DNA from: Actinacidiphila bryophytorum
GTDB lineage: Bacteria > Actinomycetota > Actinomycetes > Streptomycetales > Streptomycetaceae
Length of the DNA: 64,000 nucleotides
Reading direction: 5' to 3'
Assembly: GCF_016916835.1 (NCBI RefSeq)
Contig: NZ_JAFFIX010000001.1
Coordinates: 620,001-684,000 of the forward strand
Shown here: positions 4,738 to 15,890 of the stretch, piece after piece
How positions within the stretch are numbered: the stretch's first letter is position 1
Layout of the letters: each line of letters begins with the position of its first letter
Notes under the pieces: model-generated
What the model was told of the DNA's origin: nothing
Databases searched by the model: none
The model's input: the letters and a program-made list of their open reading frames with translations, nothing else
Translations under genes and position numbers: made by a program

Positions 4738-5361
4738 TCAGAGCCAGCCGTTCTGCCGGGCGGTGCGCAGCGCCTCCATGCGGTTGCGGGTGCCGGTCTT
4801 GCCGATCGCCGCCGACAGGTAGTTGCGTACCGTCGACTCCGACAGGAACAGCCGCCCGGCGATGTCCGCGACGGTCGCGCCGTCCGCGGCGGCGTTGAGC
4901 ACGTCCTGCTCGCGCTGGGTCAGCGGGCTCGGCCCCGCGCTGAGCGCCGCCGCGGCAAGGGCCGGGTCGATCACCCGCTCCCCGCCCAGCACCCGCCGGA
5001 TCGCCCCGGCCAGCTCCTCCACCGGGCCGTCCTTGACCAGGAAGCCGGCCGCGCCCGCCTCCATCGCCCGGCGCAGATACCCCGGCCGCCCGAACGTCGT
5101 CAGGATCAGCACCCGGCACTCGGGCAGCCGCTCACGCAGCTCCGCCGCCGCGTCAAGACCGCTGCGCCCGGGCAGTTCGATGTCGAGCAGCGCCACGTCC
5201 GGCCGTACGGCCAGCGCCTCGTCGACGATCCGGTCGCCCGCCGCGACCTGGGCGACGACCTCCATGTCGTCCTCCAGGTCGAGCAGCAGCGCCAGCGCCC
5301 CCCGCATCATGCCCTGGTCCTCGGCGAGCAGGACCCGTACGGGCTTGTCCTCATCCCTCAC
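4738..5361 (-). CDS. NarL/FixJ-family response regulator (DesR-like), orphan
   Basis: A 207-residue two-component regulator. The receiver domain has the acidic pocket LLAEDQ, phosphoacceptor Asp60 in LLDIELPG, and the Lys of FLVKDGP. The LuxR-type HTH (about 145-205) shows LTQREQDVLNAAADG and SESTVRNYLSAAIGKT. This subtype is normally encoded directly behind a DesK-type kinase in ABC-transporter operons. Here it stands alone on the minus strand, while a kinase of the right type, without a regulator, lies at 10855-12159. GTG start; the ribosome site is weak. Confidence 0.9.
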   Translation of the reverse strand: MRDEDKPVRVLLAEDQGMMRGALALLLDLEDDMEVVAQVAAGDRIVDEALAVRPDVALLDIELPGRSGLDAAAELRERLPECRVLILTTFGRPGYLRRAMEAGAAGFLVKDGPVEELAGAIRRVLGGERVIDPALAAAALSAGPSPLTQREQDVLNAAADGATVADIAGRLFLSESTVRNYLSAAIGKTGTRNRMEALRTARQNGWL

Positions 5362-8622: not shown

Positions 8623-9477
8623 ATGGGTTCCGCGAATCGCGACGGGGACAAGTACGAGACCGTCGACGGCAGCAACTCCAAGTCGTGGCTTGCCTACTTC
8701 GGCGAAGAGCTGCGGTTGGCGCGCGAGCTGCGCCAAATGTCGGTACGCCAACTCGCCTCGCACACCTCGTACTCGTACCAGCAGGTCAGCAATGTGGAGG
8801 CCGGTCGCCGTACGCCCTCCGAGCCGTTCGCCAACGAGGTGGACGCTGCCTTGGACACAGGCGGCCGGTTCTCCCGCATCCTCCGCCGGGTCCTGGCGGA
8901 CGCACTGCCGGACTGGTTCCAAGGCGCGGCACGGGAGGAGGCTCAGGCGGTCCGTGTCAGGACGTACCAGAGCCAGGTCGTGCACGGCTTGTTGCAAACC
9001 GAGGCCTACGCCCGGGCACTGCTGCGTGCCGGAAGGCCCAGGGACTCGACGGAGCGCATCGAAGCGCTGCTGGCAGGACGTCTGAGCAGGCAACTGGTCC
9101 TCGCCTCCGAGGCCCCGCCCTTTCTCTGGGCCATCCTGGACGAGGCGGTCCTACGCCGTCCGGTGGGCGGCCCGGCCGTTATGGCCGAGCAGCTCGAAGA
9201 ACTCCTGAAGCAGGCCCAGAACCCCAACGTGATGATCCAGATCCTGCCCTTCGCGGCCGGGGCTCACGTGGCAACCGACGGCTCCTTCACCCTGTGGTCG
9301 TACCAGGAACGTCCCGATGTGCTTTACGTGGAAGGTCTGTTGAGCGCGAACCTCGTGGAGCGCGCGGTAAGCCTGGAGAGCGCCCGCCTGTCATACGATC
9401 TGCTGCAGGCTGCCTCGCTCCCAGGTGAGCACTCGGCCGACCTGATCCGTGACGCCTTGAAGGGATACACCACATGA
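8623..9477 (+). CDS. XRE-family HTH regulator with DUF5753 domain
   Basis: A 284-residue WhiJ-like DNA-binding protein. The N-terminal HTH (about residues 25-85) includes LRLARELRQMSVRQLASHTS and SYQQVSNVEAG. The long C-terminal DUF5753 part contains RVRTYQSQVVHGLLQTEAYARA and FLWAILDEAVL, both typical of the family. The start has GGAGGGCAG upstream. Its stop overlaps the DUF397 start by 4 bases (ATGA), so the two are coupled. Third codon positions are somewhat less GC-rich than in neighbours, consistent with the mobile, often-duplicated nature of these loci. Confidence 0.93.
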   Translation: MGSANRDGDKYETVDGSNSKSWLAYFGEELRLARELRQMSVRQLASHTSYSYQQVSNVEAGRRTPSEPFANEVDAALDTGGRFSRILRRVLADALPDWFQGAAREEAQAVRVRTYQSQVVHGLLQTEAYARALLRAGRPRDSTERIEALLAGRLSRQLVLASEAPPFLWAILDEAVLRRPVGGPAVMAEQLEELLKQAQNPNVMIQILPFAAGAHVATDGSFTLWSYQERPDVLYVEGLLSANLVERAVSLESARLSYDLLQAASLPGEHSADLIRDALKGYTT

Positions 9478-9674
9478 TCGATCTGACCGGTGCCACCTGG
9501 CGGAAGAGCACGTACAGCGGCGGACAGGGCGGCGAGTGCGTCGAGGTCGCCGACGGCTTCACGGTGGTCCCGGTGCGGGACTCGAAGGACCCGGAGGGTC
9601 CGGCGCTGCTGTTCTCGGCCGACGCCTGGTCCGCCTTCGTCGCCGAGCTGAAGGCGGACGGTTTCCGGGCCTGA
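9474..9674 (+). CDS. DUF397 small protein
   Basis: A 66-residue DUF397 protein with the family pattern WRKSTYSGGQGGECVEVA, then VPVRDSKDPEGPALLFSADAWSAF. Such proteins are encoded directly behind DUF5753 regulators and are thought to work with them in development. The ATG overlaps the regulator's stop by 4 bases. A very large palindromic repeat begins 23 bases after the stop and may terminate transcription. Confidence 0.93.
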   Translation: MIDLTGATWRKSTYSGGQGGECVEVADGFTVVPVRDSKDPEGPALLFSADAWSAFVAELKADGFRA

Positions 9675-9697: not shown

Positions 9698-9824
9698 AGG
9701 GGCGCGGGGAACTGCGCGCTCAGCCGTCCACCGGCCGGTGGTCCGGCACGGACCGAACAGCCCCTTCGGGTCGGTGACGACCCGCGCCCCGGTGGGGGCT
9801 GAGCGCGCAGTTCCCCGCGCCCCT
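9698..9824. repeat. Large palindromic intergenic repeat, copy 1
   Basis: A perfect 27-bp inverted repeat: the left arm at 9698-9724 starts AGGGGCGCGGGGAACTGCGC and the right arm is at 9798-9824. The loop of 73 bases carries a conserved core (GGTCCGGCACGGACCGAACA). The same core is found in the opposite orientation near 14300 and 50690. The rest of 9675-9944 holds no gene. Confidence 0.85.
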
Positions 9825-9944
9825 ATGTGCTCGGCCCTGCCGAAGAGGCAGCCCGCGCCCGCCGCGGCCGGAGGACATTTGTACTGGTCGACGGGGGACA
9901 TCCGGGGCTGCCCCCGGGTGGGGGCTCGTGCGTAACGTCGTCGC

Positions 9945-10790
9945 ATGGACATGACGGGGGCCGCCCGGTTCCGGGCGGTGCGGAAGAGATTCGGCAGCGT
10001 CGAGGCGCTGGCAGGCCTCGACTTCACGCTCGCCGCAGGCGAAACCGTGGCGCTGCTCGGACGCAATGGCGCGGGCAAGTCGACGACGATCGCGCTGCTG
10101 CTGGGGCTGGACCGGCCGGACGCCGGCGAGGTGCGGGTGTTCGGCGGGGCGCCGCGGGAGGCCGTGCGGGCGGGGCGGGTGGGGGCGATGCTGCAGGTCG
10201 GGCAGCCGATCCCGCGGGCCACCGTCAAGGAGCTGGTGGGGTTCGTGGCGTCCACGTACCCCCGCCCGCTCACCACCGCAGAGGCACTCGACCTCGCCGG
10301 GATCGGCGAGCTGGCGGGGCGGCGGGTGGACAAGCTGTCGGGCGGCCAGGCCCAGCGGCTGCGCTTCGCGCTGGCAGTGGCGGGCGGCCCCGAGCTGCTC
10401 GTGCTGGACGAGCCGACCGCGGCCCTGGACGTGGAGGCGCGGCGCGCCTTCTGGCGGTCGATGCGCGGCTACGCGGCCCGCGGCAACACCGTGCTGTTCT
10501 CCACGCACTACCTGGAGGAGGCGGACGGCAACGCTGACCGCGTCGTCGTCATCGACCAGGGCCGTACGGTCGCCGACGGCACCGGTGAGGCCATCAAGCG
10601 CCGGGTCGGCGCGACGCTGGTGTCCTTCGACCTGGCGGGCGGCGGCACGGAGGGCCTGCGCGGCCTGCCGGGCGTGACCGCCCTTGAGGTCCGCGGCGAC
10701 CGGGCGATCCTGCGCAGCGCCGACTCCGACGCGACGGTGCCGGCCCTGGCACGGGCCGGCCTCGTACGCAGCCTCGCCGTCGCACCGGCC
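9945..10790 (+). CDS. ABC-2 type transporter ATP-binding protein, 3' end lost
   Basis: An ABC ATPase complete in its catalytic motifs: Walker A GRNGAGKST, Q loop LQVGQPI, signature LSGGQAQRL, Walker B LLVLDEPTAALD and switch His FSTHYLEEAD. Homologous sequence stops at about residue 282, in VAPA. Relatives continue there with a short helical tail. Instead the sequence jumps into the last 21 codons of a permease gene in another frame. No stop ends the ATPase frame, which stays open through the kinase gene to 12482, so a long nonsense tail is predicted. With its permease gone, the transporter is presumably non-functional. Confidence 0.8.
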
Positions 10791-10855
10791 AGGTGCTCGC
10801 TCTTTTGGCCGGTTACGCTGTGTTCTCCTACCGGCGGAGCGCACGGACCGTGTGA
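10790..10855 (+). pseudogene. Remnant of ABC-2 permease gene (last 21 codons)
   Basis: In the frame starting CAG at 10790 the sequence reads QVLALLAGYAVFSYRRSART and then V-stop. That is a hydrophobic helix followed by a basic tail, as at the C-terminus of ABC-2 permeases. Its TGA (10853-10855) overlaps the kinase ATG as TGATG, the junction expected in an ATPase-permease-kinase operon. The rest of the permease, normally some 240 residues, is missing. Confidence 0.7.
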
Positions 10856-12159
10856 TGGGTGGCGCAGAGGAAGGCCGCAGGCCGCGGCTCCCCGGCAGGC
10901 GCTCGATGGACGCGATGCCGACGGGGACGGGGACCGAGATGGCGACGAAGGACGATCCGGGCGGGCAGCGCTGCCGCCGCACACCGTGGTGGAAGCGCGG
11001 CCCGATGGAGTTCGAGCAGGAGATCGAGCACCTCAACGCACCCGACGGCGGTGCGCTGATCCCGTGGATCCTGATGGTGATCGGCCCGGGCACCGACGTG
11101 CTCAAGGGGGAGGTGCCCGTGCCGTGGCTGGCCGCGGCGGGCCTTGCCGCCTTCTGCGCGCTGTACGTGTGCACGATCAGGGCCGCGTTCAGCCCGCGCC
11201 GCCTGCCCACCACCCGGCTGCCGTACGTCCTGCTGGGCGCGCTCGCCGCCCTCACGCTGTCGCTGTCGATCGGCTACGGCGGCAACTTCATGCTGCTGTT
11301 CGTGCTGGTGTCGCTGTGCGCGGGCAGCGTCTCGCGCAGCCGGCGCACCCTCGGGGTGATGCTGATGCCGCTCAGCGCCGCCGCCGGCACCACCTCGGGC
11401 CTGCACCACGAGGGCTTCTGGAGCACCGCAAGCCTCTCGTACGGCACCTTCCTTTCCGGCCTGGTCGTCTCGGTGATCATCACCCTCTTCCACGCGGTGG
11501 ACCAGCTCAAGCGGACCCGGCAGGAGCTGGCGCGCAACGCCGTCGCCGAGGAGCGGCTGCGCTTCTCCCGCGACCTGCACGACCTGCTCGGCCACACCCT
11601 GTCCGTGGTCGTCGTGAAGGCCGAGGCGGCCAGGCGGCTGGCGCCGCGCAACCTGGACGCGGCCCTCACGCAGGTCGGCGACATCGAGTCGGTCGGGCGG
11701 CAGGCGCTCACCGAGATCCGCGAGGCCGTCACCGGCTACCGCGAGGGCAGCCTGTCCACCGAGCTGGACCGGGCGCGCTCGGCGCTGGCCGCCTCCGACA
11801 TCGAGGTCGTCCTGCAGGAGTCGGGGCCGCCGCTGCCGCCGCAGACCGAGGCGCTGCTGGGCTGGGTGGTACGCGAGGGCGTCACCAACGTCGTACGCCA
11901 CAGCGGCGCGACCCGTACCCGTATAGAACTGCACGCCGACGACGGCCAGGCCCACCTGACCATCACCGACAACGGCCGCGGGCTCACCCCGCCGCCCGCC
12001 GCCGGTACGACCGCCACGCTCCAGACCACCCGCACCGGAACCGGCCTGCGCGGCCTGACCGAACGCCTCGCCGCCGCGGGCGGCTCCCTCACCTCGGGTC
12101 CCGCCCCCGAGGGCGGCTTCCGGGTCGCGGCCGTCCTCCCGGTCGGCGAGGACGTCTGA
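10855..12159 (+). CDS. DesK-type sensor histidine kinase (HisKA_3)
   Basis: A 434-residue membrane kinase. A basic cytoplasmic N-terminus of about 70 residues is followed by five or six hydrophobic segments (about 65-215). The HisKA_3 box follows with phosphoacceptor His242 in RDLHDLLGHTLS. The ATPase domain has the N box VREGVTNVVRHS and G boxes ITDNGRG and GTGLRGL. The ATG overlaps the stop of the permease remnant. No response regulator follows; the next gene is on the other strand. The best-matching regulator in the window is the orphan at 4738-5361. Confidence 0.92.
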   Translation: MGGAEEGRRPRLPGRRSMDAMPTGTGTEMATKDDPGGQRCRRTPWWKRGPMEFEQEIEHLNAPDGGALIPWILMVIGPGTDVLKGEVPVPWLAAAGLAAFCALYVCTIRAAFSPRRLPTTRLPYVLLGALAALTLSLSIGYGGNFMLLFVLVSLCAGSVSRSRRTLGVMLMPLSAAAGTTSGLHHEGFWSTASLSYGTFLSGLVVSVIITLFHAVDQLKRTRQELARNAVAEERLRFSRDLHDLLGHTLSVVVVKAEAARRLAPRNLDAALTQVGDIESVGRQALTEIREAVTGYREGSLSTELDRARSALAASDIEVVLQESGPPLPPQTEALLGWVVREGVTNVVRHSGATRTRIELHADDGQAHLTITDNGRGLTPPPAAGTTATLQTTRTGTGLRGLTERLAAAGGSLTSGPAPEGGFRVAAVLPVGEDV

Positions 12160-12163
12160 GGCC

Positions 12164-12616
12164 TCAGCTCTTTGTGCCCCTGAGGTCGGCCACGAGCCGG
12201 AAGCGCTGCAGCACCAGCGGGGTGTCGTCGTCCACGGTGAAGTCCGGGTCGTCCATCGCGGCCCGCATCTCCGGGCTGTGCCAGAACTCCTCGTGCCCGC
12301 GCCGCCACGCGGCGACGCTGTCGTACCCCTCGCCCTCGTCCAGCGCGTGCGCCAGATCCACGTCCCGCAGCGGCGCAACCCGCACCTCGGTCGTCTCGAT
12401 GACGGCGACGGCCCGCTCGTCGGAGTCCACCACGACCCCCCGCTCCCCGACCTCGGGCAGCGCCTCCCCTTCGTGCTCGTAGTCCGCGACCACCCCGGTC
12501 GTCGACGTCTTGCTCCCGTCCAGCACGGCCCCCACGAGCTGATCCCGCAACTCCCCGGGAAACCCGAACTGCACGATGCCCAGCCCGGCGAGGTCCACGT
12601 CTGCGCTGTCTGCCAT
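12164..12616 (-). CDS. ASCH-domain protein (YhfF-like)
   Basis: A 150-residue protein of the ASCH fold, a PUA-related domain thought to bind RNA or nucleotides. Visible family features are GSKTSTTGVVADYEHEGEALP (a glycine- and threonine-rich binding loop) and VVVDSDERAVAVIETTEVRV. The C-terminal motif includes WRRGHEEFW. The ATG at 12616 is preferred; a GTG two codons upstream is possible. Neither has a clear ribosome site, and the preceding AAA gene stops 10 bases upstream, so coupling is likely. It converges on the kinase gene with a 4-base gap. Confidence 0.85.
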   Translation of the reverse strand: MADSADVDLAGLGIVQFGFPGELRDQLVGAVLDGSKTSTTGVVADYEHEGEALPEVGERGVVVDSDERAVAVIETTEVRVAPLRDVDLAHALDEGEGYDSVAAWRRGHEEFWHSPEMRAAMDDPDFTVDDDTPLVLQRFRLVADLRGTKS

Positions 12617-14693: not shown

Positions 14694-15890
14694 TCACCCC
14701 GCGAGCGGTGCCTGCTGCAAGGGCAGCACACACCACTCCCGGCGAGCGGGGAGCGCGGGGAGCGCAGGCCGAGCCGGGAGCGCCGGGAGGGCGCGCGCCA
14801 CGACACCCGCACCCCCGGCGGAGCCGCCCGGCTCGGGCCACCCCGCCGGCGGCTCGTAAGCCGCCAGCCCGGCAGGGCACTGTTCGTCGGCGTACGGCAG
14901 CCGCAGCTCGTCGCCCGGCAGCCACATGCCGGCCGCGCCCAGCCACCCGGGCGGCGACGCCCGCCAGTGCAGGCGGCGTTCGCCGGGGCGCCACAGCGCC
15001 AGCGACTCGGCCCCGCCGGGGACCTCGGCCCGCAGTGCGACGACCGACGCCTCGGGCATGAGGATCTGGCCGGGCTGCGCGGCGACCGGGGTGAGCAGCA
15101 CGCCGGGCACCCGCAGGGCGTCGGGGAAGCGCACCGGGCGCCTGCTGCCGAGCACCCCCCACCCGAGCCGCGCCTCACCGGTGGCGTCGCTGCGCAGCAG
15201 CAGGAGTCCGCTGTCGGGCTCGGCGAGCAGCAGCCGGTCGTCGCTGTCCTCGGTGATCTCCAGCAGCGGGCTGGTGCGCCCGGTGTGCAGGTCGGCGGCG
15301 ACGGCCTTGGTCCGCCCGTCCTGTTCGCTGTCGACGGCGAGCAGCCGCCCGGCCCGGTCGAGCCAGACCCCGCCGGTGCACCGGCCCGGCACGGCCATGA
15401 CCGGTTCTGGTACGCCCTCGGACGTGCGGTGTACACGCCAGACGCCGGTGCGGTCGCCGTCCTCGTCGTAGGCGAGCGCGTACGCGGCACCGCCGGGTGC
15501 GGGCGGCAGCAGGCGTACGTCGGCGCCGACGAGCGAACCGACCGGCAGCTCGCCGGTGTCGGGTCCTGTCGGGTAGAGCAGGGCGAGGTCGTGCCGGTCG
15601 GCGACGCGGCGCCTGATCAGCACCCGCCCGTCGGTGAGCGGCAGCACCTGGGTGCCGGGCTCCTCCGGCTGCGGCCCGGGCAGCGGTACGGCGTACGGCT
15701 CGGGTCCTGCGAGCGTCCACCGCTCGGCGAGCAGGCCCCCGCCTGCGGAACCCCCCGCCGGCGGAACGGTCTCGGCGAGGCAGGCCGCGTACGAACCGTC
15801 CGCGGCGACGGTGAATCCCGACCGGCGCACGGTACGCGGTGCGCCCGCCGTACGGAGCGCGCTCATGGCGCCTACTGCACTGACGGTCAT
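14694..15890 (-). CDS. Beta-propeller-like hypothetical protein
   Basis: A 398-residue protein without signal peptide or membrane segment. It shows repeated strand-rich units with Asp/Gly turns (VWLDRAGRLLAVDSEQDGR, LLEITEDSDDRLLLAEPDSG), suggesting a cytoplasmic beta-propeller. The last 40 residues are unusual: a Gly-rich stretch, then a repeated ALPALPAR unit, then REWCVLPLQ. The ATG at 15890 is preceded by GGAGGTGG. It is divergent from the iron-regulated binding-protein gene. No enzymatic role can be assigned. Confidence 0.75.
   Translation of the reverse strand: MTVSAVGAMSALRTAGAPRTVRRSGFTVAADGSYAACLAETVPPAGGSAGGGLLAERWTLAGPEPYAVPLPGPQPEEPGTQVLPLTDGRVLIRRRVADRHDLALLYPTGPDTGELPVGSLVGADVRLLPPAPGGAAYALAYDEDGDRTGVWRVHRTSEGVPEPVMAVPGRCTGGVWLDRAGRLLAVDSEQDGRTKAVAADLHTGRTSPLLEITEDSDDRLLLAEPDSGLLLLRSDATGEARLGWGVLGSRRPVRFPDALRVPGVLLTPVAAQPGQILMPEASVVALRAEVPGGAESLALWRPGERRLHWRASPPGWLGAAGMWLPGDELRLPYADEQCPAGLAAYEPPAGWPEPGGSAGGAGVVARALPALPARPALPALPARREWCVLPLQQAPLAG

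Follow-up and report, generated by a model that had tools for sequence, protein, structure and literature searches.

Repeated pump loss from a DesKR-type ABC transporter module in Actinacidiphila and a probable deletion scar in A. bryophytorum

In Bacillus subtilis, the response regulator DesR controls a desaturase. The pneumococcal TCS11 is a DesKR-like pair that shares one operon with ABC transporter genes and is positively autoregulated; for RR11, its regulator, no specific target other than this operon and its linked ABC genes was found (PMC11034029). The DesR operator of B. subtilis is quoted in the same study as ATGACA-N2-TGTCAT (PMC11034029). Also in B. subtilis, the two-component pair LnrJK targets the linked ABC transporter operon lnrLMN, and the transporter dampens signalling (PMC7472640).

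Here, we analyzed a stretch of 64,000 nucleotides (the window) from Actinacidiphila bryophytorum (Streptomycetaceae) and compared it with relatives, mainly of the same genus. By its sequence, the locus described here is a broken descendant of an ABC-2 exporter/DesKR-type module and is no longer a working member of that class. A single recent deletion of approximately 750 bp very probably brought permease codon ~222 next to ATPase codon 282, as one of many separate pump losses in Streptomycetaceae in which the signalling pair was kept. The deletion, the repeated losses, the constraint on the kinase, and the conservation of operator and regulator are all read from sequence. The original prediction had addressed the deletion and had missed the response regulator, the operator and the repeated pump loss in the genus. 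Coordinates are collected in Table 1.

Table 1. Features of the broken module, in window coordinates.
Feature	Position	Strand	Basis
DesR/NarL-type response regulator (Response_reg + GerE), probable kinase partner	4741..5349	-	Pfam and identity
Predicted DesR-type operator, GACATTTGTA-N13-GACATCC, upstream of ATPase	9874..9903	+	Conserved in relatives
Predicted -10 (TAACGT) of operon promoter; short leader or leaderless ATPase	9933..9938	+	Similar TANNNT hexamers in most relatives
ABC ATPase, codons 1-282 of ~309, catalytic motifs present	9945..10790	+	Orthologue alignment, Pfam PF00005
Deletion junction, ~744-750 bp missing	10788..10800	+	Comparison with intact operons
Permease 3' remnant of 21 codons and stop, out of frame with both ATPase and kinase	10790..10855	+	
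Out-of-frame read-through tail of the ATPase frame, 1.7 kb without stop	10791..12482	+	
Candidate -10 (TACGCT) within the permease 3' end, for an internal kinase promoter	10814..10819	+	
DesK-type sensor histidine kinase (HisKA_3 + HATPase_c), intact	10939..12159	+	Pfam, alignment

The three nearest pump-bearing relatives (G027, G024 and G030) have intact operons consisting of an ATPase of 308-310 aa, a permease of 243 aa and the kinase. The window ATPase matches their orthologues at 88-93% amino acid identity through codon 282, so that the homology ends at position 10790, as originally proposed. From there, another frame encodes QVLALLAGYAVFSYRRSARTV followed by a stop, which is the C-terminal end of the 243-aa permease (its final ~21 codons); this part of the proposal was likewise borne out. 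Comparison with the intact operons shows that the window is explained by one deletion from the ATPase 3' end to near the permease 3' end. Fixed anchors on either side are spaced 762, 765 and 759 apart in G027, G024 and G030, versus 15 in the window, which amounts to a shortfall of 747, 750 and 744 bp, respectively. The suggested alignment with intact ATPase-permease-kinase operons thus gave 744-750 bp more in relatives at the junction, and a relative sharing the short arrangement, which would have spoken against a deletion, was not found among the relatives. Same-genus intact operons match the window in two blocks, query 1-848 and then ~851-858 onward, which in the relatives are separated by ~740-760 bases. 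The breakpoint on the permease side is ambiguous by ~12 bp: we read the tail either as a gapless alignment or as VLAL and then a gap of four codons. The ABC-2 permease that an exporter-DesKR module requires is thus reduced to 21 codons in the window, and a PF01061 permease occurs in 19 relatives. Elsewhere in the window's genome the permease orthologue is absent, the best match being a 40% paralogue on contig C36.

An intact operon could exist on the true chromosome if the junction were an assembly or sequencing artefact. The genome is a draft of 96 contigs, and the ATPase fragment is undecayed, as expected of an intact gene. However, in the two relatives checked, exact matches between the breakpoint regions do not exceed 7 bp, and every 16-mer around the junction occurs only once within the window. 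With no flanking repeat able to cause a collapse, a real deletion is favored over an assembly error; a clean, repeat-free join inside two genes would be an unusual error, and comparable permease losses are seen in assemblies of 1-6 contigs (G029, G023, G011 and G034). An assembly collapse at the junction is therefore unlikely, and we regard an artefact of any kind as quite improbable.

With the deletion accepted, the ATPase frame lacks a stop for 1.7 kb and runs as an artificial tail through the kinase gene, as had been predicted; it is open to 12482 and comprises 845 aa. Given the intact ATPase motifs and the long open frame, the joined protein might be a functional fusion or a frameshifted product with a new role. 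This is extremely improbable: the tail arises from reading the kinase gene in a wrong frame, and very GC-rich DNA commonly contains long spurious frames; the tail is found in no relative; and ATPases of the ABC-2 type function together with a permease. Annotators should not take the 845-aa frame for a genuine fusion gene. The ATPase retains the ABC_tran domain (PF00005) apart from its 3' end, and its motifs are kept. In triplets with L036 as outgroup, the counts on its branch are ~5 nonsynonymous and 22-23 synonymous changes when L031 or L032 is the partner, and 8 and 25 with L033, a substitution pattern no worse than that of intact relatives. As relaxed selection is not visible in the ATPase, we take the deletion to be recent.

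The kinase was spared. The original prediction had the permease stop overlapping the kinase ATG; this did not hold, since the conserved kinase start is the ATG at 10939 (MATKDD) and not the ATG at 10855, whose counterpart in G027 does not share the kinase frame. The start at 10939 is placed by conservation and is preceded by a ACGGGGACGGGGA-type leader common to most relatives. The protein has the HisKA_3 and HATPase_c domains, the phospho-acceptor His and the ATP-binding boxes. Across 30 aligned kinases, neither the phospho-acceptor region (RDLHDLLGHT) nor the N box (REG-TN) varies, and the entire stretch between them is almost invariant. Its dN/dS between the window and relatives is 0.25-0.37, similar to that between pump-bearing relatives, which indicates that the kinase remains under selection. 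A literature search on this kinase in Actinacidiphila returned nothing.

A NarL/DesR-type response regulator is also present in the window, although not adjacent to the kinase: it lies ~5.6 kb away on the minus strand, and the copy in G004 is likewise upstream and inverted. The window protein shares 86-97% identity with the regulator that follows the kinase in early-branching lineages and lies nearby in others. The regulator starts no more than ~20 bp after the kinase in eight genomes (G006, G007, G013, G018, G019, G020, G025 and G029), and the ancestral order was likely ATPase-permease-kinase-regulator. It occurs in the locus or its neighborhood in 29 of 32 kinase-bearing genomes versus none of three without the kinase (one-sided Fisher test, 0.003, ignoring relatedness). 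These data make the window regulator the probable partner of the kinase. An initial regular-expression search for regulators near the kinase gave no match because the pattern was too strict; we had read the kinase as an orphan and withdrew this reading when tblastn with the real regulator matched in most loci and in the window.

Upstream of the ATPase, relatives carry GACATTTGTC-N13-GACATTC, usually followed by CTCTGCC and by TANNNT just before the ATG. In S. coelicolor, the -10 consensus reads TANNNT (PMC4895711). This predicted operator, a TGACA-N2-TGTCA palindrome with a further half-site, is clear in relatives. The window has it as GACATTTGTACTGGTCGACGGGGGACATCC (9874-9903), with an imperfect second arm (GACATTTGTA); it is similar to both the pneumococcal RR11 motif and the DesR site (PMC11034029). 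A strict operator pattern matched at most once per genome, in 19 of 35 genomes, and its reversed control gave zero matches in the 35. All but one of the 19 matches (18/19) are at this operon or kinase, and the remaining one, in G009, is at a relic locus. At that locus (L115, G009:C223, ~5995), operator and promoter are kept, the kinase is by eye an N-terminal remnant with a stop, and ATPase and permease are absent. Two other TGACA-N2-TGTCA sites, on G000 contig C11 and in G024, are at or next to gene 3' ends and look like chance. The predicted operator stands directly upstream of the kinase in several kinase-only loci, within the genus in G001, G013 and G029. We infer that the regulator binds the operator.

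An internal promoter for the kinase may lie in the permease 3' end. Codon columns in which at least half of the third bases are A/T number only five, all within the last 28 of 244 permease columns (mean, 5%), and they coincide with TTGGCT-16-TACGCT in some relatives and with TACGGT in others. Of these elements, the window has kept the -10-like TACGCT and lost the -35-like TTGGCT hexamer seen in some relatives. TAC[CG][CG]TG is found upstream of nine of 13 kinase-only genes versus 0.67 expected from shuffles; as the test ignores shared ancestry, this enrichment is suggestive only. Promoter-like sequence of the permease 3' end thus seems to be retained in scars, and it may drive the kinase.

The window is not an isolated case. 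The permease is present in 19 of 35 genus genomes, always at this locus; 13 have the kinase without it (G000, G001, G004, G006, G008, G010, G011, G013, G017, G023, G029, G032 and G034), and in three (G009, G021 and G022) the kinase is also lost. On a kinase tree of 30 of the 32 kinase-bearing genomes, with the window and its sister G004 counted as one, at least nine state changes are required, six of which are forced by well-supported branches. The scars differ in form. G004 has lost the ATPase and retains permease residues 182-243 with damage, unlike the window, where the ATPase is kept and permease residues 182-221 are missing. G006 is a close parallel to the window, with an ATPase fragment (codons 1 to about 77-91) joined to the permease tail. 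The relic in G017 is a permease tail, and another permease-tail scar (residues 208-241) is found outside the genus in G228. Beyond the genus, the pump is kept in four of 18 sampled loci. The 14 loci without it would also fit repeated gain of a pump upstream of an ancestral kinase-regulator pair across the family. However, at least five kinase-only loci, the window among them, contain remnants of the permease or ATPase that show loss there, and the intact operons have gene order, permease 3' sequence and operator in common, which makes repeated gain very improbable. These sequences are best read as ordinary, repeated loss of the exporter from a DesKR/LnrJK-like module that keeps its signalling arm.

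Several neighboring features were noted. Directly upstream of the operon (8623-9674) is a pair encoding an HTH_31/DUF5753 regulator and a DUF397 protein, which was not found at the same place in the relatives examined. Between this pair and the ATPase (9700-9823), inverted gggcgcggggaactgcgcgctcagc-type copies, seen by eye and possibly a dispersed repeat, flank a stretch of sequence. A conserved protein of ~400 aa without a Pfam match (14697-15884, minus strand) is near the kinase in most genus genomes and in some outside. In several species (L058, L059, L100, L103 and L108), a TAGAACGCGTTCTA-type palindrome and a TGTATAACGCATC-like element lie upstream of the kinase, probably serving a divergent gene.

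A very probable history can be outlined. The original module comprised an ABC ATPase, an ABC-2 permease, the kinase and an adjacent regulator behind a DesR-type operator. By analogy with LnrJK and LnrLMN, it most likely responded to a membrane-active compound by inducing its own exporter; export is its presumed function. The deletion of ~750 bp killed the exporter, leaving an ATPase frame whose translation would run, out of frame, across the kinase gene, and an intact kinase and regulator that may still signal as a pair.

What such a pair might control is suggested by a paralogous ABC operon with its own kinase, which has TGACATCTGTCA upstream of its ATPase in 10 of 11 genomes examined. At least one of the two permeases is retained in every kinase-bearing genome. 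G027 keeps the pump studied here, yet its paralogous operon is truncated; in L117 (G027:C1:3480000-3494000), this operon consists of the operator and ATPase residues 18-156, and its kinase and regulator are absent within that stretch. We hypothesize cross-regulation, or takeover, by the paralogous pump with its similar operator. A joint proposal, which we make only tentatively and consider doubtful as a whole, is that pump loss is tolerated through a second output, the paralogous ABC operon (G000 contig C36, TGACATCTGTCA operator), and that kinase expression outlasts the loss, either driven by promoter-like DNA in the 3' part of the permease gene or through fusion to the operon operator. This would explain why the deletions leave that DNA in place so often. 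A single scar of this kind is ordinary gene decay, and the whole set is more useful: some ten separate pump losses with a persisting sensor in one genus offer a natural experiment on whether a two-component system can survive its linked target and pass to a paralogue.

Among described systems, TCS11 is similar in combining a DesK/DesR-like pair with ABC genes, and its RR11 motif, ATGACATTTGTCAT-N7-AGTGACA, is close to the operator predicted here (PMC11034029). It differs in being a Firmicute operon, whereas in the window the permease is deleted and the regulator displaced. LnrJK-LnrLMN likewise joins a two-component pair to a linked ABC transporter operon, but with three transporter genes (lnrLMN) versus two here; polyene induction and transporter-mediated resistance are traits of the LnrJKLMN polyene-response system itself. 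With DesKR of B. subtilis, the module shares a DesK-type kinase and a NarL-type regulator. The target of DesR is a desaturase, whereas the conserved operators found here precede ABC operons.
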